Shown: piece by piece, positions 1,537 to 25,853 of the stretch
How positions within the stretch are numbered: position 1 is the stretch's first letter
Layout of the letters: every line of letters begins with the position of its first letter
Assembly (NCBI GenBank): GCA_963969345.1
Contig: OZ017769.1
Location: 4,402,816-4,466,815, forward strand
Direction: 5' to 3'
Source of the DNA: Turbatrix aceti
Lineage: Eukaryota; Nematoda; Chromadorea; Rhabditida; Panagrolaimidae
DNA length: 64,000 nt
Notes under the pieces: generated by a model
Databases searched by the model: none
What the model saw: the letters and a program-made list of their open reading frames with translations, nothing else
Told to the model about the DNA's origin: nothing
Program-made: the position numbers and the translations under genes

Positions 1537-4264
1537 CCCCGTGGACTACCGTAGTAGTTGGGACAAGACAACCGACCTCTCCCCCATGTTTCTTCTTCAT
1601 CTCTCTTTCCTGTGTATCCTCTTCATCGTCGTCAATGCCTCTTATCTGCCTGCGCGTGTATGACAAAGCCAAGAAAAAAAAAAACCACTGACAAACAACA
1701 ACAGACCACCCCCCGCCTCACATCCTCGTCGTCATCGTCGTCAATACACAGAATATCTCCAGTCGACGACCACTGGACACAGAGTGCCGGAGACAATGGT
1801 TTCCGTGCAAACTATTTTTTTTTTAAATTTGAAATGTTTTCGTATATTATATTCATCTTCGAAATAATTTCTAATTTCTGTGAGCGTTAAAAATTGACTT
1901 GCTTTTGTGCACAAAGACCGTGTCAAGATGTCGATAATCATAAATTTTACGACACTGTTGTTCAATTCACGCATCGCCTACGACTTCGTTAGAGTTGCCT
2001 AATTGGGCACCGAAAGGACAAAACATTGTTGTTGCCATTGTCTGGTTTAAAATTCATCGAAAACTAAAAAATTTGTACACTTCTGGCACGGAGGCGGGCG
2101 AAGGGGCGAATTTTTGAATCAGATAAGACGCAAAAGACGCAGAATAGTCTATGGTCTGAGGAGTCTGACACGGCCATGTGCTGGCTGTCCTTTTGTGATA
2201 AGTCGACCCATTGGATGTGCATCATTAATTTTTTTAACCGAACAAAAGAATTTCAAATAAATACAAAAAGAAAACCAGTCACGTGTTTTTTTCGTTCGAA
2301 AAACCTATAAAAAACAAAAGAGTCGCTTACAGTATCGAAAAAATGCATCGCATTAGATTTTATCTAATAGCACTTGATCAGATGAAAAACAGCTGAGAAC
2401 CGAAAAATGAAATGAACTTGCATAAGGAGCACTAAAAGAGCAAAACGGGAGTGAAAGACTTTTCTCCCCTTATTTTTATTCAAATTCCAGCTGAAAAAAG
2501 TCTTTTCTTCCCGTTGCGCTCCTTTTGTGTTCCTCATTTGAGGTTTAGGTGCTTCGAATGTCTAACAAGTCCGAAAGTAGAGAATGAACTCCGTCCGACC
2601 GTTTTCCTGGAATTCTGTACTCCCAGCGCAAAAACATTTCACAGGAGTATAAAAAGACGACCATCGCAAGCGAACAGTCATACCTGTTCTTGGCCTGGTT
2701 GTCGTTCCTGTTGACGAATCGAGTCGGCCGGGTTGTCCCTTGGTATTGTACCTGAATAAACCCTGACTCTAACCCCGACTCTTGACAACCAGTGGACAAC
2801 TGTCTCCACATTTCGAATGCTGCCGCTCCCGGATCTTCTTCGACTTTCCGCCAACTGGTCAGTGGGTCCCCTGATCTTCACGATTTTTCGTTCACAACCT
2901 GCCGCCTCTCCTGTGCAGGCTTCGACGCGTCGTCCAAGCCCAGACCTCGACCTGCAGGAACCCCATCCTTATTGAGGTATTTAGATTGATTGTGTGTCTT
3001 ATATTGTTGTGACGTATCGATTATAGGTCTTACTTTGTGACCCGATAAACCAAGTCTGTACGACTGAGACGGTTACGGTTACCAGCCCGCCGACGACGGG
3101 CAGCCCGGGCCCTCGGGAGTTTCGGGACCCTGAACCGCCGATACCACCCCCAACCGCCATTGATTCTGTTTGTCTCTTTTTTATGCTGATGATAAATAGT
3201 GACTAGAAACTACGTGATGGGGAGGGGCGGCGTTTAATTACCGTAACTAGTTGGGCCAATCTTGCAAAATTGAGGCCCGGCCTATCTTTATAGTACATAG
3301 TTTTGTAAATAAATTTTATCGTCGAAAAACCGTTAAAAAACAACAACAAACCCGAAGGAGGCAGAAGCACTTCCTCGTCGTTGCACAGATTCATTTTCCG
3401 CTCAATTACCAGTGCTCTTATGAACTGACGACAAAATTACGGTGCCCGCCATTTACCTTTTAGACCAAAAGAGCGGTGATAGGTCCGCAGTCTGCGCGCA
3501 TTTCTTTGCATTCTTCGTGGTTTTTACTTCTTCATAAATTTTTTTTCTTAGAAAAGTGCGATGTTTTTTTATTAGTTTTATTACGGCCCGTTTTGGCCCG
3601 GGCCGGCCCACAAAGCCCACAAAACCAATCGGCACGGCCCGGGCAGTGGAAAACACCGTCCTGGCTCGTTGAGAACCCCGTTTGGCACATATTGGTTTGT
3701 CTTCTCGATCCCGATGTGCACGCCCAACTGAAAGCTTTCAAGCTTCATTCATCGTTGCCAAATTCATTCATCGTTGCCAAATTTAGTTCTGGATTTCTAG
3801 TTGTAATTGTTGTGCAAAAATGATGATTTTCCAAGGTTGGTATCTCAGCACGAAATGAGGTATAGACTCCCATTTTGCGTAAAAATGCATATAATAGCGG
3901 TGCGGCGCAGTGCGTTCGTGGCTTGGGGGTGATATATATTGATATATCGGCCTCCACAATTTTAGGCTTTGTAGATAAACTAAAAAAATGTTACCGTAGT
4001 ATTTTTTTCTGATACAACCATTTTTTTTGATTTGGTTAGCCTAAAATTGGGGGAGTCGGTGGTATTTTAGGCTACAATAGAAAAAAATGTTTTTGTCTAA
4101 ACCAAATTAATTACGATAACACCTTTTTTATTTTACTAACGTGTTACTTATCTTTTATTTACTTAGCCTAAAATTTTGGGGGTTAGGCTAATTACTATCG
4201 CGAACCCTCATTTTTGTGGGTGTCTGTGACAGAATTCCTACTTCTCGCGGATTCCTTTTTTCAG
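1537..4264. other. Gene-poor spacer between orcokinin gene and NAP1
   Basis: I see no supported gene. It holds T-rich runs, a possible LTR-like segment (listed separately), a GC-rich patch of GGCCCGGGCC-type sequence at about 3586-3650, and at 3957-4205 several copies of the word TTTAGGCTA or AGCCTAAAAT in both orientations, which suggests a decayed inverted-repeat element just upstream of NAP1. An upstream NAP1 exon may lie here but I could not find one. Confidence 0.5.
2640..2990 (+). mobile_element. Possible solo LTR or LTR-like promoter fragment
   Basis: A GTATAAAAAG box at about 2646 is followed about 110 bases later by AATAAA at 2755-2760 inside otherwise moderately GC-rich, gene-free DNA. 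This close TATA to polyadenylation-signal order is typical of retrotransposon LTRs. I found no matching second copy, no coding region and no clear target duplication, so this is weak. A promoter of an unrecognised short transcript is the alternative. Confidence 0.2.
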
Positions 4265-5184
4265 ATGACCATGCAGCAAGCTCTCTGCGTTCGCGCCGCC
4301 ATGAAGATCGAGAAGGAATACACAAACATCGAGGCCGAGTTCTTCGAGCGTTTTCACCTCCTCGAAATCGAGTTTCAGTCTCTTTTTGCCGAAGTTTTCG
4401 AAAAGGTTGGTTTTTTATTGAATTTTACGCTGAAGTACCCTCGATTTTCTTTCCAGAGAAAGAAGATCATCGATGGCTTGATCCCTGTCACCGAGGCCGA
4501 CGTTAAGGATGTTCCGCTCATCTACACCGCTGTTGAGGTTTGTTTTTATTAAAAAAGCTTTTTTTGCTGTACAAAAATCGTCATTTTCAGCAGATCGAGA
4601 GCAAGCTCAAGGACGACGCCGTTTCCAAGGGTATTCCCAATTTCTGGCTCACCGTGCTCCTGAACTGTCCCCACACCAACGATCTCATCAAGAAGCACGA
4701 CATTCGCGTTCTCAAACACCTCGTCAACATCGAACGCGATGTGATCCCCGACGGATTCGAGCTCATTTTCACGTTCGCGCGTAATAAATACTTCTCGAAC
4801 ACGACACTCAGGAAGTCGTATGCCGTCGACTACCAAATCATCACCGACGATCCCTACATCTTTGTATCGGATACCATTCAGTGGGTTGAAGGCAAGAATG
4901 TCACGCTGAAGACGGTCAAGAAGAAGCATAAGAAGAAGGGAGGTGAAAATCGTATCACCAGGACGCAGGTCCCTCGGGAATCCTTCTTCAACCTCTTCAG
5001 CGACATGCATGACGGCGGACCGGGGTGCAACTACGAGCTGGGAGCCATCTTGCGCGAGCACATCATTCCCCACGCTACCATAATCTACACCGGTGAATAC
5101 GTTGACGACGATGACGACTACGAAGACGGTGTGGATTTTGACGAGGGTGAATTTTACGACGACGGAAGTGAGGTGGAATACTGA
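4265..5184 (+). CDS. nap-1: Nucleosome assembly protein 1 (NAP1 family)
   Basis: Exons 4265-4405, 4457-4537 and 4591-5184 give at least 271 residues. NAP1 is a histone H2A-H2B chaperone acting in nucleus and cytoplasm. Diagnostic features are the long helix with IEAEFFERFHLLE, the EKRKKIIDG turn, GIPNFWLTVLLN, the LKHLVNIE segment, a basic KKKHKKKGG stretch, ESFFNLFSD, and a very acidic tail (DDDDDYEDG to the end). The 3' acceptor of exon 3 is CAGCAG, so one Gln may be alternatively included. The ATG at 4265 directly follows a splice acceptor (TTTTTTTCAG). An upstream coding exon is likely because family members usually begin 50 or more residues earlier. AATAAA near 5405 may be the poly(A) signal. 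Confidence 0.92.
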
Positions 5185-6570: not shown

Positions 6571-6860
6571 CAGAGATGGCAGATCAGATCACTTTTCGGA
6601 TCAGATCAGATCAGATCACAGATAATCCAGATTAGAGCACTCGGAATTCAGATCAGATCACTAGAAATTTTCGCTTGTTTTTCGAAGAATACGATAGTTC
6701 TCAACAAAAAAATTTATATTTCACTTTTCGCGTTGAAACCAGTGTTCTCGGGAACCTGAACCCTAAATTCCGAGATTTTGGGCTGGGTCGAGTCAGATCA
6801 GATCAGATCGCAGATAATCTAGATCAGGTCATGAGCAAATGATCTGATCTGCCATCTCTG
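6571..6860. mobile_element. hAT-type MITE, copy 1
   Basis: A 290-base element bounded by inverted repeats CAGAGATGGCAGATCAGATC and its complement, the CAG-rGrTGG type typical of hAT transposons. Flanking 8-mers are CCCGACAC and CCTGACAC (7 of 8 match), fitting the 8-bp target duplication of hAT. It is rich in GATCAGATCA and has no coding capacity. A second copy with closely similar interior lies at 18038-18336. Confidence 0.85.
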
Positions 6861-6985: not shown

Positions 6986-7584
6986 TCATCGCTTCTTCTT
7001 CTTTCCGCCACCGCCGCCTCCGGGTGCGGCGCCGCTGCTCGAAGCCGCCGACTGCTGCTGACCTCCGCCACCTGGCTGTCGGCTCTTCAGCTTGGGGATC
7101 AGGGTAGCCGCGTGGAGCATGAGTGACTTTCCTGCATAAAAACAAACGCTAGAAGAGATAAATTTTATAAAAACTTACGGGTCGGAAATTTGACATTACA
7201 AAGCTCGCCGTCATCGTTTTTGAGCTGAACTCGGACTCGACCGACGAAAACTGGATTCCGCTCCGGATCACGTGGATGCATTTTGCCTTTCTGGAAAAAA
7301 TGAAGCGTGTGAAAGTGAAAAACAAGGAAAAAAAGGTAAACTAACCTCGATTCTGACTTTCAAGCCTTCAAAATTGAGAATCTCAAAGATTTCTTGCGGT
7401 GTTGGGTTGTCCACCCCCTAAAGCATTCCATAAAGTCATTATGCAATGAAAAAATCAAAAAACCAACCTTCGAGGACGGAATCCGTCTTCCCTGTTCCTT
7501 CGTCCGCTTGCTGTTAATAAAAGCCGGATAAATCGTAACCCATCGATTTTCATCCGAGTACGGTCTCGTTTTGACCGACGTCAT
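6986..7584 (-). CDS. SRP19: Signal recognition particle 19 kDa protein (SRP19)
   Basis: Four exons on the minus strand (7584-7468, 7417-7346, 7290-7179, 7131-6986) give 148 residues, close to the human length of 144. SRP19 binds SRP RNA and allows SRP54 to join, for protein targeting to the ER. Conserved blocks are RWVTIYPAFINSKRTKEQGRR, with IP just after, then the GVDNPTPQEIFEIL helix, a central HPRDPE turn followed by GRVRVQLKNDDGE, and a basic tail ending GGGGKKKKR, as in other SRP19 proteins. Intron donors here are GTTGGT, GTTAGT and GTAAGT. The gene is divergent from the RNB-protein gene, about 400 bases away. Confidence 0.95.
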
Positions 7585-7990
7585 GCTAGCTCACAACTGG
7601 CACAAAAAATCGGCAGAATACAGCGACAAAAACCACTTCAAAACAATCAGCAACGTTTCAAGAAAAGAAGACAAAATTTTATTCGCGCAGAATCAAACTG
7701 CAAAAATTATCGTGTCGAGACGCGCTACGTGCGCATTGTGAACTATTTGTTGGTACGAATGAAATTCAAATTATTTCATGCAAAATTTGTTAAATTTTTG
7801 AATATTTGCCAACCATGCTAATGCGCTTTTGTTATTATGTGGATTCATCATTGAGTATTCGTCAGTGTTTCAAGAAGTTTGGTCGACTGCTGATCGGTAA
7901 GTGTGATTGTGCGGTGGGGTCGTTTTTCTTCCTGCCTTCCTTCCCTCCCCCGTCAACTCGGCACATTTTTTTCTTTGCAGAAACGAACAA
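7585..7990. promoter_or_regulatory. Divergent spacer between SRP19 and the RNB gene
   Basis: About 400 bases between the two opposed start codons, probably holding both promoters. A TTTCTTTGCAG acceptor ends at 7980, ten bases before the RNB-gene ATG, so that gene probably has a 5' UTR intron or is trans-spliced. No TATA box is evident. Confidence 0.45.
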
Positions 7991-10900
7991 ATGTCGCAAT
8001 TCGGCTCTGATAACAGCGAGCACGAACCGGAGCCTCCTGAGCCGGTCGTCGACAAGCGAGGCACTCAGCCTCAATCCGTCGCAAATTCAGACGACGAAGA
8101 CAAAAACAGCTCTGATGGCGGCGGATGGCAGGTTGTCCGAAAGAAGGTTGGTTATTTTTTTTTGGATGTAGCTGACCGACTCGATTTTCGGGTTCGGGTA
8201 ACCGTAAACCCCAAAAATGGTTATAAAAGTAATAAAAGTTACCCGAAATCTTCTACTGTTTATTTTCGCTTCAGGAACCTTGACCATATTTTCGCTTCAG
8301 GAACCTTGATCATATTTTCGCTTCTGGAACCTTGTTTTCGCTTCAGCAATCTTGTTTTCGCTGCAGGAACCTTTCAATTGACTTTTTGATTTTTTTTGGG
8401 ACTCAGAACTTCAAAATTCGAAAATAGCTTTTCCAAAAATTTCGAGCGAAAACGTCATTTTACGCTTCAATCGTTGCAGGACAAATACCGCCACAACGAA
8501 GACCGTGTCTATCGGCGCGCCCTGACCCACGGCCTCATCCCGAACGATGGTTCCGCCGACCGTCGACAGTACCCCATGCAGCCGGCTTCCTGCCAGCCCC
8601 AGCAACACATGAACGATTCGATCGCGTGCCGGAGTTACGGCGTCCGGGATGCCAAGGATCTCGATGAGTGTCGTCGTCAGTTTGCAAATATCGTCGCTTC
8701 GACGCGTACTTTCCGTCACGTGGCCACGGAAAATCCCCGACCGTCATGGGACCCCAACGACGTCCAATCCACGCAGTCCAGCGCGATGAGCGCGGCTCGT
8801 ATGAGCTCGACGGGCGGTGGCGGCTTCGGACGAGCTGTCAATGTAGAATGCCGGCCTTCGGTGATTGCAAAAACCGCGACGCTCGACAATGATACTCGGA
8901 ACCCCTTTGCGAGGGTGTCCTCTGCTGGATCGACTCCTGCGACGCCTGGCAAGTTTGGTGATCGTATCACGAGTGAGTTTCCTTATTTTTAGGGGTAGGG
9001 CGAACGTTCGGGCTTGTTCGCGAACAAAATTGATATTATTTATGGTTTTTTTCGTTGTTCGCGAACAAAAAATATTTTTTTCTGTTTATGTTCGTTCGCG
9101 AACAGATAAAAAAAAATTTTTTGTTCGCGTTCGTTCGCGATATTTTTTTTTTAGATTTTTCAAACAGATAAAACGTACAAAAAATTGGGTAAAATTAGGA
9201 TCACAGTGTCAAAATTGATGCTATTTGACAAAAAATGGAAAACTACGTTTATCAATTTTTTGTCTGGAAAAAAAGTCGAAAAGCATGGACTAATCCATTT
9301 TTTTGTTTTTTTTTATCGAGGAACAAAATTTCACACAATTGATAAAAAAAATCTGTTTTATGTTTGTTCGCGAACACGGTCAAAAACGTTCGCGTTCGTT
9401 CGATTCTTAGAACAAAATTTTTAATTTTGCGAACAAAAAAAATCGATTTTTTTTCAGTAACAGATTTCCGTCCGTCGTTCATCGACCAGACAACCCCAGC
9501 CTTCGAACAGCCAACCCGAGGCGGTTTTGCTCGGTCGGCCGCTCCTTCCGACGACTCCACCCCGACGGGCCACACCCGAGGCGGCTTTTCCCGGCGTGCG
9601 ACGCCTGCTGAAGGCGATCAGCCCCGGCGAGGCGCTTTTGGAAACTCCCAATCGGTCGATATCGACCACCATGAAATTTTCAAGGCCTCTGGTTCTTCTG
9701 GAAGGACCCGAGGCAGCAACGGGCGCATGAACAGGATCGACGAGGACAACGAAGAGGATCTCGACGGATTTCGACCCAATCCGAGTTTTCTCATGCAGAG
9801 TGGCAACGTTGGGCCTTCCTACGCCGAAATTTGGCAGAATGTCGTCGATTATTACGATACCCGTGGGTTTTACCAATTTTGGGGGTGGTTAGGATCCTGG
9901 AAATATTTCAGACAGCGTTTACGAAATCGACAGGTCAAGTGACAAGCCGTGTCGACTTTTTGACGCCCGTCATGCTCAGCTCCGGGTGGTCAAGGATCCG
10001 ATGCTGGTCATGAAAGCTGCCCACATGCACGCAAGACGCATGCCGCCTGGCTCGCTCATTGCTCGTGAGTTTTTGTACTTTTCTGGAGTGTCTTTTGATT
10101 TTTAGGGAATATCGACGGTTTTGACGAATTTTTTGGAAATGTTGAAAAATTCGGCGTTTTTTAGGGTTTTGAACTTTTGACAACTTTTTTGGGTTTTTTT
10201 TAAATAATTTTAGAGAATTTGAACAGTTTTTGCTAATTTTTTGGGCTAATTTTCGAATTTTTGAGAATTTCGGCGGTTAAAGCGGATTTTTTGAAATTGT
10301 GGAAAAATTTGGCCGTTTGAGCGGTTTTTTTTGGGTAAATGAATTTTTTTTGACAAAATCGATGGTTGTTGCGAATTTTTTTGGCAGGTTTTCGATTATT
10401 TTTCTAATTTCAACAGTTAGGTATTTTTGTGGAATTTTTGGGGGTGTTTTTGGACTGTTGGAAAATTCAACGGTTTCTGCGAATTTTTTGGCAGGGGTTT
10501 TCGAATTTCTCGATTTTCGACAGTTTTAGTGAAATTTTTTGGACTTTTTAAAATTTTTGAGAATGTTTTAAAATTAAAACGAGTTCTGCGATTTTTTGGG
10601 AACGTTTTTTGAATTTTTTGAGAATTTCTACGATTTTTGAGAAATTTTAGGGGTGTTTTTCTTGATTTTTGGCAAAATCGATAATTACTGCGAATTTTTG
10701 AGGTGTTTTTTTGATTTGATTTATTCGGTGATTTTAGCGCAATTCCGACTCCAACAATGCATGTACAACGAGAACCTCCACTTTTCGATGCACATCCACG
10801 GCGCCCGTGCCCTGCTCGAGCGATTTGCCCGCGGCCTGGCCGAGGCGCAGATCGGCACCCGGCTTGCCCCCCTCGGACACGACAACACGAAAATCAAGCC

Positions 10901-13900
10901 CCTGAACTACTACCACAAATGCGATCCCATCAATTTTGACGACCTCCCTTCCCATGTACGCACCCGACTCATCCACGAACTGAACTTTTCCAAGCGCTAT
11001 AACAACCAGAAGAATCTCCGCTCCATGGAATACGACGCCGAGATGAGCATGTTTGTCAACGAACTCGACGATACGGTTTCCAAAGAGTCGTTTAACGGAA
11101 AAATGCTCAGAACCGAGGAATTTGTCGCTGACAAGGATCTGGCCTATTTCAAGGGCATGCTTGATGTCATGAATTCGAGAGTCGAGGAAATTGAGGACTA
11201 TCAGGTTGGTTTTTTGGTCTTTTGGGGCATGTTGGGGTGTATTCGATCCAAAAATCCGAAATCCTGGTTTTTAGGCACCGAAAACCGTAAAAAATAAACT
11301 TTTTACCAAAATTAAATTTTTTTTTGAAAAACCGAGAAAAAATGCTTTATTTTTGTATTTAAAATAGCAAAATATCAAAATCGGACGTTTGTAATGAAAT
11401 TTTTTTATAAGTTTAAAAAATACGTGTTTTTTTGATTGCGTACCTGAAATTTTGGATTTTATGGTTGAGTTACCTGAATCTTTGAAGCACATTTTCGAGG
11501 GGGTACTCAGATTTTTGGGGTTCAAAAACCCAAAAAAAAACACTTTCTACCGTTCAAAAACCTAAAAAAACTTTTAAAAATGCTTCTAAAAATTTTAATT
11601 TTCTTTCAAAAAACAAAAAATATGTTTTAATTCTGCTCAAACACCAAAAAAGTTTGTGAATTGTTATAACATCTATTTTTTTTATGCCCAAAACAATACT
11701 TTTTTTTTGAGTTCGAAAAACCTAAAATTTGGGTTTTTAAGTCGGGTTCCTGGAAATTTGGGCTTCTTGGACGATTTTGAGGTCAAATTTTAGCAGTCCT
11801 TCGTGACCCCACTCCCGATCGAGTCCCCCATCGGCCTGACCTCCTCCCGGCTCTGTCGCATCACGAATGCCACCAAACGACGCCGTGCCATGCTCTTCCT
11901 CCCGTCCAACAGCCTCTCCCTCACGACGAGTCCCGCGGGCATCAAACTCTTCTGCGAGGCCCGAGCATCCGTCGATCTGCCCAAATCTCCCGTCACGTAC
12001 CCCCAGGCCCGTCAGCTGGACGTCTCCGAACTCGAGAAAGTCGAAAACCCCGCTCCTAGTTCCCGGAAACGATCCCGAGCTGTCCTGAAAATCGTCGACG
12101 ACGACGAAGAAGACGCTCAGCGTGTGCGTAAGCCCGTGGCGCTCCAGGTGACCCGTCCAGGTAATCGTCATGACCGTCTCATGCTTCCGAAGAAGGTCAG
12201 CCGTGAACTGCACGATCGAATCGTCGCACAACGCCGGCTGATGGTCGAGACTGAAGCCAAAAAACCGGAAGACAAGGTGATTGTTGCTGCAGGCGATGAA
12301 CAACCCGAGCAGGAAGACGAGGACGAGGACGTCGATGACGAACGCTACTGCCAGCAGATGGTGCAGCGCGTGATCGACTACAGATCGACCAATGGGCTGC
12401 CCCCCGTGGACGAAGGACTCGTGAGAAAGATCGTCGAGAGGGCTTTCTACGAAGATCAAAATGGTCAGGACACGTCCACGCAGCGAACCGACAGCGAAAA
12501 TGAAAATGATAACTGTAGCAACAACGAAAGCGTCGTCGAAGAGGACGAAAAACAACGCGATTTTGACCCGCTAGTCGGGGGCATCGATCCTGCTGCTGGC
12601 GATCAGGTGAGTCAAATTTTCCGGAGCGCGAGCGGAGCTAGCGTAAAATTTTGAAAGAACGAACGCGGATCTGTTTGAAAAAAAATTATGACAATTACCT
12701 TTTTTCATATTTGTTCACTTCCGAACAGATTTATGCCTAAAAATTTGTTTGAAGAGCAGAAAAACTTTCGCGTTTCGGTTTTTACCCCAAATTCGGTGAA
12801 AAATTTTGAAATTTTTTTTGGAGCATTTGCGATTTTCATGCGCGCGTTTTTTATATTTAGAAACGAATTTAATTTTTTTTTTAATTTAAAATTATTTTTT
12901 TATAAATAATTTTTTTTTTAATTTGAAAAAAACTTTTTTTAATAACAAAAAAATTAATTATTAATAAAATTTTAAAAATTTGAGCTCAAAAATTTGCAAA
13001 TAAAAGGACCTTGAAATCCCTGCTTAAAAAATAAAAAAAATATTTTAATAAAAAAATCTAATTATTTAGAAGAAAACCGCAAAAAATTTCAAAAAAAAAA
13101 TTTTATTAGAAAATCCTGCCTGAAATTATTTTTACCCTGCGATAAATGCATTTCCAGGCGAAACCCATGCCTCCAGGCACCAACGAAGCATTCCACGACC
13201 CATTGAAGCCTTCTGAACCCCAGCTGAACGACAGTGAATCCGAAGCCCCGCCTGCACCCTCCATCCCAAAACTGGAACCCGTCGTCTGCGGCCTGAACGT
13301 CAAAAACCTCTACTACGTCGTCGAGAAGTGCAAATCCGACGGCATAGTGCCGTTCATCGACCTCTCCGCTCTCCTCCCCCAGGTCGTCTACCGGCCCTTC
13401 GACGCGTTCGACGGCGTCGCAAATCGTCTGACGACCTCGCAGTCTCTGAACAAACTCGAGTGCGCGGCAGATTTTCTGCCCTCCTGCAACGACGACGAAA
13501 ACGCCAACGTCGATCTCCCGGCTCACCCACTCCGACGCGTCCAGTCCCACATCCAGCTGACGGCGCACAACTGGAACGAAATCGAGAACGCCACAAGAAG
13601 GTACCGGTACTCAGCGAAGGGTGCCCCACCCTACTTTGACGTCATCCAGAAGCTGTACAACTCGTTCAGGTTTTCGTCGTTTTCGTATCGACAGTGCGCA
13701 AAGCGGGAGCACAGGTCGTATCGGCAATGCGTGAAACGGGAACATCGGCCGAATTTCTTCCCCTTCCTGTCGCCGATTTTGGCAATGAGGGGCGTCAACG
13801 AGCGGAAGTTTGTTACGGTTGGTTTTTTTAATTTCTTGATTAACTATTTTAATTTAAAATAAAAATTTTTTTACTAAATAAATTTTTTTTAATAATTTTT

Positions 13901-16900
13901 TTTTTGTAATTTTTTTTTTGAATTTAAATTTCATTTTTTTTGTTAAAATTTTTTTGTTTGTTGAAAAATGCTAATTTTTTTTCATTTTTTTGTGTAAAAA
14001 AAATTTATAATAAAAATTTGTATTACATTTTTTTTTACTTTTTTTTAATACAAAAAAAGATTTTTATTTTTTTTTATTTTCTGAAAAAATGCTTTGTTTT
14101 AATTAATTTAATTTTTTTGTTAAAAAAATTTATAATAAAACTTTTTTAGTGTTTTTTTAATTAAAAAAAAATTTTTTAATGAAAATGCATTTTTTCAGGG
14201 CATCTTGCGCATCAACCCGCGCAACATGGAAGAAGCCTTCGTCATCGACGACAAAACCGGCGCCGAGTACGATTTCGTCGTCTACGGCTCCCGATTCCGT
14301 AACCGCGCCCTCGACGGCGATTTTGTCGTCGTCCGTCTCCGGGACAAACTCGACTGGATGATCAACGAGAACGTCTACCAGGTCTGGCGGACCGGTCGGC
14401 GTCGAGGCGCCACCGACGAATCCCTGACCGCGGCGTTCAACAAGGCACGCGAGATCGTCCTCGATCGAAACGATCCCCTCGCCTTCATCCGGGACGACGA
14501 TATCCGCAAAGACATTCGCCGCAACATTCGCAAGGTGATCCCTGTCTTCGTCAAGAACGACGGCCTCCTGGAGCGCTACACCCGCCGCGAAATGTACCAC
14601 ATCGGCGCGCAGTGTATGCACTTTTGCCAGCAGCTCAATGATGCTCTCGCCACCGCCGAGGACCGGGTCGTGCTTCCGCCCTACGAACGACGCCTGCTCA
14701 ATCCCATCGATCAGCCGGACATGTTCCGGGCCATGGGAGTGTACTGCGACGACGGAAGCCTGGTCTCGCCACGATCGGGTAACCGGGATTACATCCCGCT
14801 TCGACCAATCTCCCAGCAGTGCCGTTTCAAACAGGTCAAGCGAATGATGTATCCCCGATATTTCCGAGGCATGCATCGCGCCGAGGATATTCCCGACTGC
14901 TGTCTGCGCAAGACCGCCGAGGTCATCCTCATCGCTGAGCATTTTAACAGCGGTCTAGGCGTCGGTCGCTGCGAAGCCTTCAACCGACGGCCTCAGCCTA
15001 ACGGCATCTTCAAGCCTTTGGATGTTCGTGTTCCCAGGCAGATTCTGCTGTCCAGCCAGCTTCCTGCTGATTTCAAGTATCGCGAGAACGAATTCAAGAA
15101 TATTCTTCTGCTCGTCAAGCTCAATCGTTGGCATGTTCAGTCAAGATTTCCGCGAGGTGACGTCATCAAGCAAATTGGGCCTTCCGGACTGCTCCGATCC
15201 GAAGTGCTGGGTCTCGTCGAGATGCTCGGCATTGACAGCGGACCGTTTTCTACCGTTACAGTATCCGATGCTAATGCTATCGTGACGAGAGACTACATGG
15301 TGAGTTTTTTAGGCTATAATCTTGTTTTGGCACGAAAAGTGATTCATTTTGTTTTCTTAGCACGAAAACTAGTTCATTTTGTTGTCTCGACACGAAAAAG
15401 GGTCGTGACGTTGTCTCAACACGAAAAGTGCTCAATAACGTTGTTTTTTTTGTTCCTAACACGAATTTTCAAATTTCAGAATCTCCTCAACGGTCAGCGC
15501 TTCGATCTCCGCAGTCTACCTACTTTTGCCGTCGACAACGGCGACGATGAGCACAGCCTAGCGCTGAGTGTTGTCAAAACGCACGTCCAAGGAGTCGCCC
15601 GTTTCAAGGTCTACGTTCACGTGCCCGATGTCGCGTTCTACGTCGATGCCGGCTCGACAATCAATGCCGAAGCCCAGGAACGATGCTGCGCAGTCAACGC
15701 TCAGGATCTTGTAAGTCGGCACTTTTGGACCATTTTTAGGCCTTTTTTTGCAGGTTTTCCCCATGCTGCCTTCCGAGCTGACGCAAGACGTCCTCTCCTT
15801 CACCCCCGAACAAGACCGGCCTACTGTCACGATGAGCTACACCCTGGATGGCGACGGAAATATCGTCGAGTACCACATTCACCGCTCCGTGATCCGGACG
15901 ACGGCCGCAGTCTCGCTGAACGTGCTTGCGGCTTTGGTCTCGCAATCCGTGCTTCCGCCCCACATGTGTCCTCCGAATGTGGACTACTCGCTGGTCGAAT
16001 CGCTCCGGGGACAGGTCACGCTGCTTTTCAACCTCGCACGCACTCTCCGGCGCCGTCGAATATCCTCCAAGCCTTCGTTTATCGTCGGGCGCTCGCGAGT
16101 CATCTTCAAGGGCGCAACCACGGTTGGCGACTCCAAACGCGATTCTCAGAGCAAGCTGGAGCTCAATCCGAAGGTCGTCTCCGCTGGATTCGTCAATTTC
16201 AACGTTTTGGACATGATCGACGAGCTCCAGTTCACGGCGAATTCTGTTGCGGCCCAGACGGTCAAGGACGAGCACGAGCATCTTTTAATCCTCCGTAGAT
16301 CGTGTGCGCCGCATCCGAGGGCCGTCTTCGAGCTCAACGCTGTTCTCCAGTCTCTTGGCTTGCCCGCTTTTGACCCGGCAACTGACTCCGCTGCTGCCTA
16401 CGTCGAGGAACACGCCAGCAAGACCCGGGCCGTGGCCCTGCCGGTGGCGGTCCTCCTCAACTACCTGCTCTCCAAGATCCAGACCCCCAACCGGTACATT
16501 ACGACGAACGACATCAAGGATGACATTGACTACGAGCATTTTAACCTCGGCGAGAAGGTGTAAGTTTGATTTTTGGATTTACAAGGAATTTTGCAAATTT
16601 TTCATGGAATTTTGCCAAAAAAAATTGCTGTTACCATGAAAAGTTTTTTCCGTAAAATTTACGTGTTTGAGACATGATCTGACAGAGTTACGGTAGCCTA
16701 AAATCCTAAAACCGATTTTTTTTGTATTTTTTGATGATTTTTGGCGCGTTGTAACAAAAAAATTACGGCATTGTCAAAGCTAGGGTACATCTTGTTCTGC
16801 CAATCTAGAAAAATTCGGAAAATTGCATTTAAAAAAACACTTAAAATAACAACCCTTGTTTCGGTATTTTTCAAAGTGGCACACCTATATTTTTATATTT

Positions 16901-17890
16901 TTATCGGATTCTCCATCAAAAATAACGTCATTCAATATGCACCCTGGTTTTGGAAATACCGTAGTTTTATTAGCTACAACGTGCCAAAAATAGTCAAAAA
17001 TGTCAAAAAAGCGATTTTCGGCAGACGTAACTCTGTCAGATCATGCCTCTGGCGGATGAATTTTACGGCAAAACTTTTCATTGCGAAACCTACCTTTTTG
17101 AAAAATTTCTCGTTACCCTTCCCTGGTTGCAGGTACATGCGCTTCACCGCCCCCACACGGCGGTACGCGGACCTCTTTGCTCAGCGGATTCTGCTCGCTG
17201 CAACTGGCTACTCGGATTTTATCGAGATGGACCCCGAAGAAGTCTCGACCATCGCCTCCAAGTGCTGGAAGCGCGAGGAGGAGGTTTCTCGCTTCAGCGA
17301 CGAGCTGACGCAGCTCTACTTCCTCTACTTCGTCCGCACCCGGGGCTCCTTCGACGCCGCCGCAGTGGTCGTGAACATCGGCGAAGCGTGGATGGACGTC
17401 TTCCTGCTCAAGTACAACGTCGTCGAGCGCTGCTACCTGACCGTGGCTGAGCTGTCGACGGCCCGCACGCCGACCATTATCCTGCAACCGGTGCGCGCGG
17501 CCGTCATTCACTGGGACGCGGGCGGCGTCAATCGCTGCCGCCGTATTCGACTTCGTGGCAATCGTTTTGTCACGGAAACTGACTCGCCGTCCAGCGGGAC
17601 GGCTTCTGAGCAGTCGGCGTCCAATGCCAAGGTGAACGACGTCACCCAGCTCATCCACATCGGCTCTGTCGTTCGCGTTTTTGTCGAGACCGAACTCGCC
17701 TGTACAAAAGTACGCGTGAGTCGTTTTTTGAGGGGGGCAAGGATTCTGAGTGGCTTTGTTGTTGCAGGTGCGACTGATGGCTTCGACAGCTATGGACGAA
17801 CCGGCGTTCAAGGAGCTCGAGGCCGCGTTCAAGGCCGGGGACATCGGAAACACGCTCTGCAACCTCGACTGCACTTTTTCGATTGACTGA
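7991..17890 (+). CDS. Large DIS3L2-related RNB-domain protein, predicted catalytically inactive
   Basis: Twelve exons: 7991-8146, 8480-8972, 9458-9862, 9912-10064, 10738-11204, 11794-12606, 13158-13817, 14199-15299, 15480-15710, 15754-16559, 17133-17715, 17768-17890. All phases agree, giving 1996 residues. The first roughly 1000 are low-complexity and charged and not recognised. From about 1050 it follows DIS3L2: a cold-shock-type segment (ILRINPRNMEEAF, RNRALDGDFVVVRL), then the RNB fold from about 1417 (RFDLRSLPTFAVD, VHVPDVAFYVDAGS, MRFTAPTRRYADL) and an S1-like tail. DIS3-family enzymes degrade RNA 3' to 5' using an aspartate cluster, D-x-D-D-A after the FTID motif. Here the matching stretch reads VDNGDDEHSLALS, so most of that cluster is absent. 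Yeast Ssd1 is a known dead, RNA-binding member of this group. Human DIS3L2 is 885 residues, so this protein is over twice the usual size. Fusion of two genes is an alternative for the N-terminal half. Confidence 0.82.
8261..8374 (+). repeat. Short tandem repeat in RNB-gene intron 1
   Basis: Five degenerate copies of TTTTCGCTTCAGGAACCTTG, 20 to 28 bases apart. Each contains a TTCAG, so each resembles a weak splice acceptor, but the true exon begins at 8480. Confidence 0.75.
8999..9447 (+). mobile_element. GTTCGCGAAC-rich interspersed repeat, copy 1
   Basis: Lies inside RNB-gene intron 2. It has several GTTCGCGAAC palindromes and blocks such as TTTTCAAACAGATAAAAC, GAACACGGTCAAAAACGTTCG and GATAAAAAAAATCTGTTTTA. 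The same blocks recur, inverted, at 58787-59403 in the lpd-3 intron, and in parts at 40650-40890 and 51520-51835. No coding capacity. Confidence 0.75.
10065..10737 (+). repeat. Long T-rich intron of degenerate 40-60 base repeats
   Basis: RNB-gene intron 4 consists mainly of variants of GAATTTTTTGG, AATTTTTGAGAATTTC and GGCGGTT arranged in loose tandem. There is no coding potential beyond chance. Confidence 0.5.
15330..15472 (+). repeat. About 31-base tandem repeat in RNB-gene intron 8
   Basis: Four to five degenerate copies built on CACGAAAA followed by CATTTTGTTGT, within the 15300-15479 intron. Confidence 0.7.
16634..17083. mobile_element. Foldback (palindromic) MITE in RNB-gene intron 10
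   Basis: The intron 16560-17132 is nearly filled by an inverted repeat. The left arm holds CATGATCTGACAGAGTTACGG and the right arm holds CGTAACTCTGTCAGATCATG, while the outer ends pair CATGAAAAG with CTTTTCATTG. The interior shares TTTTTGGCGCGTTGTA-like and TTCTCCATCAAAAAT blocks with the element at 26788-27225, so the two belong to one family. The transcript strand could form a hairpin of over 200 bases per arm. Confidence 0.8.
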
Positions 17891-18037
17891 AATCTGATTT
17901 TTCTGTTGACTTTATTGTTTTTATTTTATTTTGTCTGGCAAAAAAGAGCTTTGATTTTAAATACCTGATTTTTTGACGCGTTGTTAACCAGGTATGAGAA
18001 AATAACGTTTTTTTGTTTGCGAACGAACGGCGTTGAT

Positions 18038-18336
18038 CAGAGATGGCAGATCAGATCACTCGGAATTCAGATCAGATCACAGATAATTCAGATCAGATCA
18101 CTAGAAATTTAAAATTTTACAACTTCAAACACGTCCGCATTGCTTGTTTTTTTGATGAATACGATAGTTCTCAACAAAAAAAATTTATATTTCACTTTTC
18201 GCGTCGAAACCAGTGTTTTCGGGAACCTGAACCCTAAATTCCGAGATTTTGAGCTGGGTCGAGTCAGATCAGATCAAATCAGATCGCAGATAATCCGGAT
18301 CAGATCATGAGCAAATGATCTGATCTGCCATCTCTG
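18038..18336. mobile_element. hAT-type MITE, copy 2
   Basis: A 299-base element with the same CAGAGATGGCAGATCAGATC inverted ends as copy 1. Flanking 8-mers are GCGTTGAT and CCGTTGAT (7 of 8 identical). The interiors share AACACTGG-type, CGCGTCGAAACCAGTG and GGGAACCTGAACCC blocks. It sits about 150 bases after the RNB gene stop. Confidence 0.88.
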
Positions 18337-18869
18337 CCGTTGATCAGAATAGCCAAAAACAGACAAGCACGCAGGGGCCATGGAAAAATTGGAAAAACCC
18401 GAGTTTTGAGAAAGTTTATTTTTTTCGAAAAAAGTAGGTTTATTTGACGTTTTTGTGCTTCATTCGTCTTTTTTTTTATTATTATTCATTTTCCATAGCA
18501 TTAGGTTGTTTCAAATTTTTTTTTTCGAATTTGGACAAATTTTGCGAAAATAACCCTAAAATAAAGCACGAAATTTTTTTTCAAACTTTTATCGGTATAT
18601 TTTGATGCAGATGTTGAAATAAACTTTTTTCTAATGTAAGAATAGTCCAAACAAAATGATGTGAGTCAAAGTCGAAATCAGAGTCTTGTAAATGATAAAA
18701 ATTCGAGCGTTTGCATTTTTTGTACTTTTTCTTGTTGTTTTTGTCCGAAAATTACCAATTTTGAACAAAAAAAAAGTAAGTTTTTTTAATCGTTTTTCTT
18801 CGATTTTTTTCATTCAATTGATAAAAATCACGAAGAAAATCCGCCCGAGCACCGGCCCCCAATTTTGAA

Positions 18870-20230: not shown

Positions 20231-20596
20231 TTCATCGTCGTCGTTTTGATATTTACTTCCGAACATTGTTTATTCCCGTTTTTCCACCCTCGCAGATGTG
20301 ATGTCGTCATTGTCCCGACCGACTCTTCTAGAATGCCCGGTGCCGTCGCCACCAGGCATCCATCCATCCAACAGGTGCCAGTGCAGCAGTGCGTACCTTT
20401 CTGCGCCCCCGTATCCGTGGGGGCGGATCGGTGGATCAGGGCTGCGATCATCGGCGCTGGCTAGCAGGGCAGGAGCAGCACCAGCATCATCGATGCAGCT
20501 GTTTGTCCCGCAATTTTTTGCTTTTTGCATCCCCTCTTGTTTTTGTTGTTTTGAGGGGGGAGGGGAGGAGGCTATCCGACGAAAGACCGGCCGGGA

Positions 20597-20602
20597 TATA
20601 AG
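20597..20602 (+). promoter_or_regulatory. TATA box of the calponin gene
   Basis: GGGATATAAGG is followed by a GC-rich leader of about 95 bases before the ATG at 20695. Spacing and context fit a strong muscle-type core promoter. Confidence 0.5.
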
Positions 20603-20694
20603 GCCTCTCCGCCGGGGGATACAGCTAATCACTTCACCCGAGCCTCTTTGCTCCACACAACACTCCTCCTCAGTCAGTCCAACTAAGCAGCATC

Positions 20695-21188
20695 ATGTCA
20701 GCCCGAACGACCGCTGGTGGCATCGGCTTCGCCGTCATGGCCAAGGTTTGTTTCATTTTTTCTCGCTCGATCCTTCCTGGAACCCTTCTAACCCAATTTT
20801 CTTCCAGCAAGCCTCAAAATTCAACGAAGACGAGGCAAAACTCCTTCTTGAGTGGATCAAGAAACTCTCCGGCGAGAACATTTCCACCGCCGGCGACCGC
20901 GAGAACTTCCTCAAACTCCTCAAAGACGGCACGCTCCTCTGCAAGCTCGCCAACGGCATCGTGCCCGGCTCCGTGAAGAAGATCCAGAAGCCCATCTCCA
21001 ACTTTGCGTGCATGGAGAACATAAACGCTTTTGTCGAGTTCGCCAAAAAGCAGGGCGTGCCAACCGAAGAGACCTTCCAGTCAGTCGACCTCTTCGAAGC
21101 CCGCGACCTGTTCTCCGTCATCGTGACGCTCCTCTCCCTCGGCAGAAAGCTCGAGAAGGCCGGCAAGTCCAACCCCTTCTCCGGCTAA
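20695..21188 (+). CDS. Calponin-homology (transgelin/calponin-like) protein
   Basis: Two exons, 20695-20745 and 20808-21188, give 143 residues that are almost entirely one CH domain. The CH domain binds actin in muscle calponins and transgelins. Landmarks are [10 protein letters not shown] at the domain start, [20 protein letters not shown], the [20 protein letters not shown] block, and [20 protein letters not shown]. It ends in KSNPFSG without a visible full calponin repeat. Nematode relatives are the cpn genes; which one cannot be told. A TATA box, a GC-rich leader and a cytosine-ending codon bias suggest high expression. Confidence 0.9.
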
Positions 21189-21377: not shown

Positions 21378-23677
21378 TTAGGCCTGGAAGATGGTCTGGG
21401 GCAGTGGGAAGTCGTCCATGTTGCAGCGGGTGAAGAAATCTTTTCTCAGGGCCTGGTACTTATCCCGGGTGGATTGTTCGATGTCGTCGAGGAGTTTCTA
21501 AAAAACATCTGGCATAAACTCGTTCACTGACAAAAAAAATGCTCACAGAGGCCAAAATGATTCAAAAAAAGGTAGAAACATGCAAATCGTATTTTTTGTA
21601 GGCTATTTTCGAATTTTCATAAAATTTAGCAAAAAATAGAAAAATTTCAAAAAATTAGTCAAAAAACTTTGAAAGCCTTGGTCCGAATGAACTCACCTTA
21701 TTAGCAAAAATGTGGTCAATAAGAGCGAGAAAGACGAACTTGTACTGCCAAACAGTCTGAACCGCGTGCAATCGCCCGTCTCGGACCCGATAAAAGTGGT
21801 CATCCACCTTGAAATTTCTAGTCTTGCCCGCGTGAAGCGCAGAATGAGCCAATTCGAGGAAGGCAAGCGTGCCAGCTCTTCCGGCCCCTGCCTGGCTGAC
21901 GAAGGCGACAGGCCGTTTCTTGTTTTTCAGAAGCGAGATGACCTGCATGACGGATTCGGTGTTGGTCGGGACTTTGCCTTCCGGCCAGTTGAGCAGGCTG
22001 ATCCAGAGCACAGATCGGCACTCGTCTTCCTTGACGAGACTGTAGATCGTCACGCGGTAGTCTCCGTTGGCGCCGGACACTTCGCGTTGCCAGGCGAGGG
22101 AAAAGTTGGGTGGTAGGCGGCAGCACCGTCCGGATTCGGGTAGCATGTCCAGAGGCTTGCCGACCTCTTCCCACTCTTGGGGTGTCATGACGCAGACCAC
22201 GGCGGGCACGACCTCCTGCCAAATCATCTGCCAGAAGTCGAGAACGGTGGATTTTAGCGGCAGTTGAGACACTATGAACTGAAAAAAATACCGTAAAAAA
22301 ACCTTAAAAAATGTTTTTGCGCGAAAAACCATAAAAAATACGGTTAAAAAAAACGAGTTCGGTCCCGAAGCGAAAAAAACAACCGATTTGGTCCTAAAGT
22401 GAAAAAAACGTCCAGCTCCCTCCAAATGCGAAAAAAATGACCGTTTAGGTCTTGAAGCGAAAAAAACAACAGGCTCGGTCCCGAAGCGAAAGAAGATCTA
22501 CCGATCCAGTCCTAAAGCGAAAAAAACAACCAACTCGGTCCCGAAGCGAAAAAAAACGACTGATTTGGTCCTATAGCGAAAAAACGATCAGCTCGGTCCT
22601 GAAGCGAAAAAACCGACCGGCTCGGTCTCGAAGCGAAACAAGCGACCACCTAGGTCTCGAAGCGAAAAAACCAACCGAGTTTCCGTCCCTCGACGAGTAG
22701 TTCACCCAATTTGCGTGAATAAAGGCGGTCGCCGAGTCCTCCAACATCACCCTCGACTGATCCATGCACACAATATCCGCGTACCTCGCTTTGCCGTAAT
22801 TATCGTCAAAAAGATGCCTCGTAAACGACTTTGGCACGTAACCCCTGATACGGTCGAACCTCGCGTCGAGCTCCTCGAATTCCTTTTCAATGGTGTTCTT
22901 CGCAAAAAAACGCATGCGATCGGCTTCGAGCTGCTTCGCCTTGGCGGTCGGGGTATCGGCGACTGTCGGAGTCGTTTGTCCTTCACTGGCGGGTTCTGCC
23001 TTTTGGGGTTTCTCGCTCTGCGGAGGGGTTACCGCGTTGGGGATGAGCACCAAACTGCCCGGGACCACAGGAGATTTTGTCGGAGAGGTCGAAGAGGCCT
23101 TGGGCGCCTGCGGGGTTGGAGTCGTCGTCTTCGAATTACCCAGCGTCGTTGGCGGAGCATCTTTTGAACCCCCACTCTTTGCCAGGGTCTCCCGACTCCT
23201 GGGCTTCGGTGGTGGAGGGGGATTGGCAGTCGTCGGGGGCGTGCTGACATCATTCATTGGTTCTCGGGATGCCGGTTTTGGTTTTTCCTTGGAGTGGGGA
23301 AGGGCTCTGCTCAGAAATGCCCTGGGGTTAAACTTGTTGCCGATATCGCCGGTTGGATTCGGCGGGGTCTTGGCATCTCCGCTCGGGCCGCCCGAACCCT
23401 GGCCCGGTACCTGGCCCGGAACCTGGCCTGGACCCCGGACCGGAAACTGGCCCGGCATCTGACCTGGCACCCGACTCGGTACCTGGCCCGGCACCTGACC
23501 CGGCACCTGACCCGGGACCTGACCCGGAACCTGGCCCTGGCCATGGTGCTTATGCTTTCCGTGGCGATGACGGTGATGACGCCGATGGCCGTGAGGCGAA
23601 TTTTTTGACTCTTTCTTCCGGAACAGTCCGAAGAATCCCATGACGGTTGATGGTTTATAAAGTGTCGAAAATGCCAT
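21378..23677 (-). CDS. PTP-fold protein with substituted catalytic cysteine (pseudophosphatase)
   Basis: Exons 23677-22676, 22278-21697 and 21497-21378 on the minus strand give 567 residues, or 555 if the ATG at 23641 (MGFFGLF) is used. The N-terminal third is disordered: His/Lys-rich, then about 13 PGQV-like tetrapeptides, then Pro/Ser/Thr-rich. The tyrosine-phosphatase domain runs from about residue 250: RIRGYVPKSF, FIHANWVNY, FIVSQLPL, FWQMIWQE, and the P-loop region near 462. Active PTPs carry HCSAGxGRTG; here it reads VSQAGAGRAG, with Cys to Ser. The WPD loop reads WPE. Both changes predict no catalysis but possible phosphotyrosine binding. Intron 1 holds a 29-base tandem repeat. The gene is convergent with the calponin gene and divergent from bystin. 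Confidence 0.88.
22361..22676 (+). repeat. 29-30 base tandem repeat in PTP-like gene intron 1
   Basis: About 11 copies of GGTCCyGAAGCGAAAAAA plus a variable 11-base spacer. The final copy abuts the donor site of exon 1, so the repeat begins immediately inside the intron. Confidence 0.85.
23394..23556 (-). repeat. 12-base coding minisatellite (PGQV tetrapeptides)
   Basis: A tandem 12-base repeat reading GTGCCGGGTCAG-like on the minus strand, about 13 units, inside the disordered N-terminal region of the PTP-like protein. A few units vary (SRVP, GQMP, RGPG). Confidence 0.85.
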
Positions 23678-23901
23678 TGCGAGTCAAGTCATCGTGCCAA
23701 AGGTTGGAGTATTCTAATTTTACGACCAAGAGAAAATCGTAAAATCGTCGATACAAGTTTTTCAAATAAAACCCTAACTTTAAAAAACCTTGGCAAAGTG
23801 TCCTCAACAAACCTACTTTTTTCGTGCGTTTTTCTTTGCGCCCAAGTTTCTGCCTTTCTGCGTATTTTTCTCTGTTTTTGGTTACCTTATCTTTTCTAGC
23901 C
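23678..23901. promoter_or_regulatory. Divergent promoter region of PTP-like gene and bystin
   Basis: Only 224 bases separate the opposed start codons. TTTCTAGC immediately precedes the bystin ATG and looks like a 3' splice or trans-splice acceptor. A TTTATAA on the minus strand at about 23654 lies between the two candidate PTP-like start codons, which would favour the shorter form if it is a TATA box. Confidence 0.4.
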
Positions 23902-25853
23902 ATGGGAAGAGCTCGTAAACGTCAGCTGGCAAAGGCCGGCGACAAGGTCGAAAAGCCTAAAGAGGCGATCGATGCCCAGATCCTCGGTGATTACGTCGTC
24001 AAGCCGAAAACCGTTCGTTTTGCCGACGATGATGAGTCTGACGATGAAAAAGTCGCTCCGGTGAGTTTTTCCTGTTTTTACCTGTGTTCAGCTTGAATTG
24101 GATATTTTTTAGATCGATCCGAAGCGTCTCGAAAAAATCATGCAGCACGCGCGGCAGCAGGAACTCGAAGAGCGTGACGAGGACTCTGACAACGACGAAT
24201 CCGAACCCGCTGCAAAGAGGCCTTCTCCCGGAGTCAAGCTGGGCGAAAAGGCTGACAAAGAAGATCACGAAGAAGACGATGACTTAGGCGAGACAGTGCC
24301 GTACGATCCGGCAGAAATTGAAGTCGACTCCAAAGATGCCGAAGATCTCGCCCGCTTTTTGACTCCTGCCGGAACGGGTGGCACGCTTCACGACCTGATC
24401 CGACAGAGACTCGACGAACGGAGTAATCCGAATTTGATGCCGTTGGGCGGGGACCGAAAGGTTGGTTGATTTTTAATTTTTCTTTCTTTGACAGTCATTT
24501 TTTTGTTTTTTTTTTGTTCCAGCTGCCTTCAAGCATCCCTCCAGAAGCCGTTCAGCTCTACAAGCAGGTTGGCAACATTCTGTCTCGCTACCGCCACGGC
24601 AAGGTGCCGCTCGCGTTCAAACACCTGGGAACCCTGCCCAACTGGGAGGACTTTATCGATTACACCGCTCCGGAGAATTGGTCGTCGGCTGCGATGCTCT
24701 ACGCCACAAAGATGTTCATGAGCAACCAGAAGAAAGACAAGTGCCAGCGTTTTTTGAACACGATTCTGCTGCCTCGCATTCGGGACGAGATTGTGCATAA
24801 CCGGGCTCTGAACTTTCATCTTTATCAGGCGCTGTTCAAGGCTTGCTTCCAGCCTCAGGCTTTCTTCAAGGGCATCATTATTCCTCTTGCTGAGGTAAGT
24901 CCATGCATTTTAGAATTTTGAACAGTGTTGTCGGGTATCTTACACGAAATTTCGGGTTTTCGGATCGATATCCAAAAAAAACCTAAAAAATAGTCACTAA
25001 AACAAATTATTTTCCTAAAACTTTCTGTAAAATCAATTTTTTTTTTGATTTTGGCCTTTTTTTGTATTCAAGAATCTTGAATCAAGATTTAGAAATTCCG
25101 GGATAAGTTTCCTGAAAATTTCGGTTTTTTGAGCGCCGTTTATTTTTTATAAAAAAAATTTTTAGTGTTATTTAAAATTTTTTTTCCGTATTTTGCACAA
25201 ATTTTTTGTTCAAAACAAAATAATGCTATGTAAAAATACGAAATAATTACTCATTTTTACTGAAAGCTAAAAAACTGGAAAAATGACCTTTTTATTTTTT
25301 TTACTGCTTTTGAGCATTTTTTGACCGTATATTTTTTTCAGTCCGGGAACTGCAGCCTAAACGAAGCCTCCATCATCGGATCCGCTCTCCTAAAGTCCAA
25401 GATTCCCCAAATGCACTCTTGTGCTGCTCTTTTCAAGCTCGCAGGAATCCGCGGAACATCCTTTGCATCCGGACTGTACTTCATCCTCGTTCTGCTCCGA
25501 AAGCGCTACGCATTGCCCTACCAGGTCGTCGACCGGCTCGTTGAATACTTTGTTGAGTATGTTTTTTTATTTACAAATATTTAGTTCCATGAACCGTATT
25601 TTTTTTTTTCAGGACATCGTCGGCAAACGCATCACTCCCGCTTCTCTGGCAACAGACTTTTCTCAAGTTTGTCGATCTCTACGCCGACGACCTTTCGGAC
25701 GATCAAATCACGCTGCTCCAAGTCGTCACGAAGGAAAAACACCACCATCCGAAAATCACTCCCGAGATTCTTGGTCGCCTGAACGAGGCCGTCGAAAAGA
25801 GTACCGCAGAGGCTGCCGGCAATGTCGAACCTGCGAAGATGGAAGTTGCGTGA
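23902..25853 (+). CDS. byn-1: Bystin (ENP1/BYSL, 40S ribosome biogenesis)
   Basis: Exons 23902-24060, 24113-24460, 24523-24894, 25342-25556 and 25613-25853 give 444 residues (human 437). Bystin/Enp1 is a nucleolar factor needed for 18S rRNA processing and pre-40S export. Features are a basic N-terminus (MGRARKRQ), an acidic middle, and the bystin domain: KVPLAFKHLGTLPNWEDF, HLYQALFKACFQPQAFFKGI, SGNCSLNEASIIGS, KKxIPxxHS-like KSKIPQMHSCAALFKLA, RKRYALPYQVVD and LPLLWQQTFLKFV. The exon 4 to 5 join uses donor GTATGT after TTGA; only this join restores the LPLLWQQ frame. The last intron is 56 bases. Confidence 0.95.

Follow-up and report, generated by a model that had tools for sequence, protein, structure and literature searches.

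Introduction

Active enzymes of the RNB family carry an FTID motif followed by an acidic cluster that holds the metal ions. One member, DIS3L2, has a defined job in nematodes, in ribosomal RNA (rRNA) surveillance and the inheritance of RNA interference: in Caenorhabditis elegans, DISL-2 (SUSI-1) is an exonuclease of oligouridylated rRNA, which it clears together with the uridylyltransferase CDE-1, and its loss raises the level of antisense ribosomal siRNA (risiRNA) (PMC7472701, PMC8450093). Fungal Ssd1 shows that DIS3L2 can also turn into a non-catalytic RNA regulator; in the yeast protein the equivalents of the four metal-binding acids are Ser704, Val709, Glu711 and Phe712, which are unable to coordinate a cation (PMC8934651). 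A 2020 survey of 76 species, with "some animals" among them, describes at least four losses of DIS3L2 catalysis in fungi, inactive Mucoromycota copies that occur beside active ones (e.g., in Rhizopus), and an intact signature in all metazoan homologues that it examined (PMC8097288). In our literature searches, which covered the titles and abstract openings of the open-licence papers listed, we met no animal DIS3L2 pseudonuclease. Here we describe a gene from the nematode Turbatrix aceti, lying in a stretch of 64,000 nucleotides (assembly GCA_963969345.1, contig OZ017769.1, positions 4,402,816 to 4,466,815, forward strand; hereafter the window), that is probably such a case: we put at roughly 0.7 the probability that this gene, the sole DIS3L2 found in the assembly, encodes an animal DIS3L2 that has given up catalysis and binds RNA.

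Results

The gene was read as a spliced model on the forward strand (7991-17890) with 12 exons, all junctions of which are GT-AG, giving 1,996 codons without an internal stop. Its conserved DIS3L2-type core, consisting of CSD1, CSD2, RNB and an S1-like tail, is encoded by the exons at 14199-17890. A sequence-only reading of the interval 15480-17715, which corresponds to exons 9-11 of the 12, had proposed an RNB fold that retains the first Asp of the catalytic cluster but not the DxDDA, with TAPTRR in place of TSPIRR, and had likened the protein to Ssd1 as a pseudo-exonuclease in an animal. The fold is borne out: the motifs on which that proposal was based are in frame in the GT-AG model, and Pfam RNB matches residues 1423-1785 with 173.5 bits (cut-off 29.3). 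The exons are as follows, on the basis of the GT-AG model except where other evidence is named.

7991-8146, forward strand: exon 1
8480-8972, forward strand: exon 2
9458-9862, forward strand: exon 3
9912-10064, forward strand: exon 4
10738-11204, forward strand: exon 5
11794-12606, forward strand: exon 6
13158-13817, forward strand: exon 7, in the final codons of which CSD1 starts
14199-15299, forward strand: exon 8, with CSD1, the CSD1 insertion and CSD2 (alignment to DIS3L2, OB_Dis3 match, AlphaFold2 model)
15480-15710, forward strand: exon 9, start of RNB and degenerate metal site (Pfam RNB from residue 1423; FAVDNGDDEHSLALS)
15754-16559, forward strand: exon 10, middle of RNB (within the Pfam RNB match to residues 1423-1785)
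17133-17715, forward strand: exon 11, end of RNB (TAPTRRYAD...AQR) and S1-like C-terminal part (aligned residues; weak Dis3l2_C_term match)
17768-17890, forward strand: exon 12, ending in the stop codon TGA

At the metal site, active enzymes read FTIDPSTARDLDDALS. The signature D....DxDDA is whole in the diatom protein P0005 and in all of the best 120 of 7,350 relatives of a tick DIS3L2, every labelled one of these being an animal, a count that is biased because the tick query is itself active and the rows are the best-scoring part of the 7,350. The nematode stretch is FAVDNGDDEHSLALS (FAVD, then NGDDE, then HSLALS; residues 1432-1446, 15525-15569), which is in frame, as are VHVPDVAFYVDAGS (residues 1462-1475, 15615-15656) and MRFTAPTRRYADL (residues 1764-1776, 17137-17175). 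With phmmer, the motif shows a one-residue gap against DIS3L2; Ssd1, taken from its phmmer alignment to the Parasitella protein P0001, reads IFAISELGWVSEFALHV, to which the nematode motif aligns with no gap, and we therefore prefer the Ssd1 register of the two given below.

15534-15536, 15549-15551, 15555-15557 and 15558-15560, forward strand: former cluster in the Ssd1 register (Asp1435, Glu1440, Ser1442 and Leu1443)
within 15534-15560, forward strand: former cluster in the MAFFT register (Asp1435, Asp1438, Glu1440 and His1441)

In either register the first Asp is retained and the DxDD cluster, on our alignments, is not whole, so that this part of the earlier proposal stands; the comparison with DIS3L2, DIS3 and Ssd1 places the protein on the DIS3L2 side, and no alignment that we tried gives DxDD. 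Nor was the cluster found elsewhere in the locus. A scan of 7901-18000, exons and introns alike, in all three forward frames gave no match to the core D-[LIVMF]-D-[DEN]-[AVG], and for D-x(4-7)-D-x-D-[DEN] it returned just a low-complexity acidic stretch at 12295; we thus found no alternative exon that would supply the DxDDA.

Further residues of the RNB domain have changed. These were read from a MAFFT alignment of the query with 44 DIS3L2 proteins (thinned from the 120 by shared words), P0005, P0001, P0002 and P0003, in which the active set comprises 45 proteins and a position is called conserved when at least 95% identical, gaps set aside, over at least 35 rows. The Tyr of TSVYL, present in at least 95% of the active set, is replaced as follows.

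15696-15698, forward strand: Asn1489, in place of the Tyr of TSVYL

The Ser of TSP is Ala1768 in the nematode protein, as the sequence-only reading had noticed, and Ssd1 likewise has TAP. The His of VHR, found in 41 of 42 active proteins and retained in Ssd1, is Gln1779, a replacement also seen in P0001, P0003 and P0002. Both Arg1771 and Arg1772 of PTRR are retained, and R616 and N663 of human DIS3L2, which have been discussed as facing the incoming RNA (PMC10023572), correspond in the phmmer alignment to R1682 and N1729.

Retention of conserved positions is uneven along the protein. CSD1 keeps 13 of 14, the CSD1 insert with CSD2 14 of 24 and the tail 5 of 12; along RNB the fractions are 23/54, 16/33 and 12/23 (together 51/110), three more conserved columns being gaps in the nematode protein. 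The difference between CSD1 and RNB is significant (Fisher p 0.001) and persists when gaps are counted as rows (CSD1 11/12, insert and CSD2 13/23, RNB 31/74; p 0.001). Against the 45 active proteins, identity averages 0.40 in CSD1 and 0.24 in RNB, as compared to 0.48 and 0.52, respectively, for the tick protein against six diverse active ones. The cold shock domains thus appear better kept than RNB, chiefly owing to CSD1, which is the trend described in fungal pseudonucleases. P0001 follows the same trend (CSD1 11/14; RNB 28/54, 14/33 and 13/23, or 55/110), and P0002 does not (CSD1 8/14; RNB 33/54, 22/33 and 17/23). The latter, a DIS3L2-type protein of 1,419 residues, has a damaged cluster (ITIDSSDANDIESGF) in a loop of normal length, a better-kept RNB domain and a second cold-shock-like stretch (RNRSLDGD) before CSD1; it is possibly a further pseudonuclease.

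Several comparisons point to the DIS3L2 family. Searched against solved structures, the 957-residue core matched mouse and human DIS3L2 best (192.6-191.6 bits, E about 1e-55), followed by Ssd1 (94.6), Trypanosoma brucei RRP44 (92.5), Schizosaccharomyces pombe DIS3L2 9cy7 (91.3), 4ro1 (90.1), DIS3L1 (78.3) and human RRP44 (about 77 bits). With CSD2, RNB and the S1 part alone, DIS3L2 scored 166.6, 9cy7 92.5, RRP44 92.2 and Ssd1, lower, 72.5 bits. Pfam OB_Dis3 matches with 56.4 bits and Dis3l2_C_term on the C-terminal part with 21.1, below its cut-off of 31.6, and the short CSD1 aligns to DIS3L2 (GILRINPRN...RNRALDGDFVVV). In two maximum-likelihood trees, the second of which left out P0002 and both fungal proteins (Ssd1 is in neither), DIS3 and bacterial enzymes separate at 99/97 and 99/99, with the nematode protein on the DIS3L2 side; its identity to the active rows is at most 25% and its terminal branch very long (4.1 and 8.07, as compared to 0.76 and 0.92 for the DIS3 of the same genome). 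An AlphaFold2 model of the contiguous stretch 14199-15710 scored, in blocks, a predicted local distance difference test (pLDDT) of 82-97 across both cold shock barrels and 69-82 around the metal-site region; since 60 of the input residues are translated intron, the model does not decide between the registers of the metal site. Foldseek with this partial model placed mouse DIS3L2 first (4pmw, E 2e-11, template modelling score 0.35, which is low) and Ssd1 fourth. Taken by scores and by domain order (CSD1, CSD2, RNB, S1-like tail), the gene appears to be a member of the DIS3L2 lineage, closer to DIS3L2 than to DIS3, DIS3L1 or RNase R. No nematode-labelled entry occurred in the 61 matches and the 1 match that protein-database searches gave for the query, nor in the best 120 of 7,350 for the tick DIS3L2, organism labels being often missing.

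Profile searches of the assembly (59.9 Mb, 28 contigs) with RNB and OB_Dis3 identified two genes: this DIS3L2 and, on contig C4, a DIS3 with an intact signature (DPVGCTDIDDALH, DPVGCTDIDD). A search with P0001 likewise returned both genes and no others. A search with P0006, which carries the DIS3 signature, returned the C4 gene alone and missed the DIS3L2 gene even at E 0.1, so single-protein searches can overlook so divergent a copy; it is therefore the profile searches that carry the result that the assembly yielded no second, intact DIS3L2, a copy that the sequence-only reading had thought worth seeking. The PAP-associated domain, which marks the protein class to which uridylyltransferases belong, gave four matches at three or four places, and the RNA-dependent RNA polymerase (RdRP) profile sixteen matches at six places. 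The 22-base spliced leader 1 (SL1), a hallmark of chromadorean nematodes, occurs with a following GT 177 times at up to 2 mismatches, against 0 for the reversed pattern.

Discussion

The nematode protein shares with DIS3L2 of mouse and human (4pmw, 8e27-8e2a) its domain order, the LRINP and RNRAL motifs of CSD1, and the top sequence and Foldseek matches; it differs from active DIS3L2 in the lost metal cluster and in several changed conserved RNB residues. With yeast Ssd1 (7am1) it has in common a DIS3L2-type architecture without the cluster, a motif loop one residue shorter, TAP for TSP and a better-kept CSD1. In contrast, Ssd1 is fungal and has an S1 insertion of 86 residues; the nematode C-terminal stretch that could hold such an insertion spans, by alignment only, 78 residues between anchors (42 active proteins: median 43, range 8-80). 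Because the core scores 192.6 bits to mouse DIS3L2 and 94.6 to Ssd1, we read the likeness to Ssd1 as probable parallel loss rather than descent; by score alone, descent within fungal Ssd1 is not indicated. Among Mucoromycota, the Parasitella protein P0001 and P0003 and P0004 (Mucor) are pseudonuclease-like, with a lost cluster and the same motif-loop length, and P0001 and the nematode protein both carry the motifs HVPDVAF and ERCCAV. An active partner copy has been reported in Mucoromycota such as Rhizopus, whereas here the gene is the sole DIS3L2 found. DIS3/Rrp44, of the same RNB family, is in this genome a separate gene with an intact DIDD.

With the metal-binding cluster lost, the protein should bind RNA without degrading it: metal-dependent hydrolysis by the RNB domain is not expected, and RNA binding, lack of activity and a regulatory role are predicted, in keeping with the pseudo-exonuclease comparable to Ssd1 that had been proposed. 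CSD1, as the best-kept domain, would likely be the principal RNA contact, as is thought for the cold shock domains of Ssd1, and the remnant RNB funnel may still hold the RNA 3' end. One could envision as the likeliest state that the RNA-tailing and small-RNA machinery persists while DIS3L2 binds RNA rather than degrading it. More tentatively, and with clearly less than even confidence, we suggest that the sole DIS3L2 has changed from an eraser to a reader, recognising (perhaps uridylated) RNA via CSD1 and the remnant funnel and regulating it, and that oligouridylated RNA is left to other nucleases or to RdRP-made small RNAs. A natural animal case of this kind would allow one to ask which functions of DIS3L2 require catalysis, and the neighbouring pathway can be examined, as the genome retains PAP-associated-domain proteins and several RdRPs.

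Some results weigh against a non-catalytic DIS3L2. Active S. pombe DIS3L2 (9cy7) and the DIS3L2 entry 4ro1 score slightly below Ssd1 and T. brucei RRP44; the trees, because of the extreme end branch, do not fix the position of the protein inside DIS3L2; and the contrast for CSD1 is based on 14 columns, with CSD2 and its linker keeping just 14 of 24. At the metal site itself, D1438, D1439 and E1440 are acidic and nearby, and MAFFT, with a three-residue gap, sets Asp-Asp-Glu-His on the former cluster, D1438, E1440 and H1441 taking the last three metal positions, so that two acids and a His stand on DLDD. In another MAFFT alignment, with 43 rows, D1438 again falls in the near-invariant Asp column of the second metal position. 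Such a displaced run could form a different metal site in a rewired nuclease with some exo- or endonuclease activity left, a view with which the two retained Arg of PTRR and the short helical turn formed in the AlphaFold2 model by residues 450-452 (DEH), right before the next strand, would agree. The second alignment, in backing the same register, raises the odds of this slightly and lowers those of a non-catalytic protein slightly. However, the MAFFT register costs a three-residue deletion as compared to one residue for the Ssd1 register, which is gapless against Ssd1; a Tyr, a Ser and a His that active enzymes conserve have changed as well; and the model is only moderately confident at that point and includes translated intron. 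We consider a rewired nuclease unlikely. Relaxed selection on a gene that has no role and is en route to loss appears similarly unlikely, if perhaps a touch less so: the extreme branch and the 59 of 110 conserved RNB positions that have changed are what one would expect of it, but the long spliced frame, every exon of which is GC-rich at third positions, is not, and uniform decay would not leave CSD1 kept nearly as in active proteins.

Alternatively, the gene could have been transferred horizontally from Mucoromycota, whose inactive DIS3L2s share HVPDVAF, ERCCAV and the motif-loop length. The Parasitella and Mucor proteins were ranks 1, 3 and 4 of the first protein search, and one tree groups the nematode and fungal proteins at 74/85; this grouping is weak, however, and flagged as long branches meeting, and the core scores 192.6 bits to mouse DIS3L2 as compared to 114 to Parasitella. 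Same-residue replacements exceed those in a class-preserving shuffle (P0001 18 vs 6.4, P0003 20 vs 6.7, P0002 12 vs 3.4), and the nematode protein and P0001 have the same residue at 18 of the 72 positions changed in both, but three single active proteins share 2/26, 4/36 and 5/18 (11/80), which is not clearly fewer (p 0.10), and we therefore make no claim from shared replacements. Such a transfer seems very improbable. Least credible of all is an error of assembly or gene model at the motif, which is known from the genome assembly alone; against it, a DxDD core is in no forward frame, and the lost residues are spread over several sites and more than one exon. A DIS3L2 turned non-catalytic is the reading that we retain.

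Other features of the locus and window

GC content at third codon positions is 0.61-0.78 in the exons, against a GC content of 0.10-0.50 in the introns. The intron before exon 9 (15300-15479) is 180 bases long, in frame and free of stops; retained in the transcript, it would lengthen the link from CSD2 to RNB by 60 residues. The N-terminal approximately 1,050 residues (exons 1-7) have no recognised domain: a Pfam search of residues 1-1039 gave no match up to E 1, hence no PIN domain was found, and a PDB sequence search with a 310-residue N-terminal stretch gave none up to E 10. AlphaFold2 on exon 5 alone was uninformative (pLDDT 37). Exons 1-6 (residues 1-832) may form a distinct upstream gene; a gene of exons 7-12 only could begin at the in-frame ATG of 13146 or at Met833 (13167), and the AT-rich intron 12607-13157 holds four AATAAA ahead of the alternative start. 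Two copies of a palindromic element resembling a miniature inverted-repeat transposable element, with the ends AGAGATGGCAGATCAGATC and GATCTGATCTGCCATCTCT, sit either side of the DIS3L2 gene (6571-6860 and 18039-18337), their matching blocks being 83-96% alike.

The following neighbours were recognised in the window.

4187-5181, forward strand: NAP
7363-7590, reverse strand: SRP19-like start (23.9 bits, below the cut-off of 25)
within 20250-21185, forward strand: calponin-homology protein
21658-23683, reverse strand: tyrosine phosphatase
24427-24918, forward strand: bystin
29686-29767, forward strand: tRNA-Ser(CGA)
36572-37585, forward strand: tyrosine kinase
44358-46490, reverse strand: Sec7 protein
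55773-56258, forward strand: tyrosine kinase
59340-63090, forward strand: BLTP1-like (one of three pieces above the cut-off)

An open frame at 49343-50362 consists of the tandem repeat SGRGKNQLERGSLRSGREAPAERRP and variants of it, and has no Pfam match. At 1102-1536 lies a precursor of repeated peptides ending in GFTGFDKR or GFTGFDRR (AFDSL..GGFTGFDKR), which we take to be reminiscent of orcokinin-like neuropeptides.

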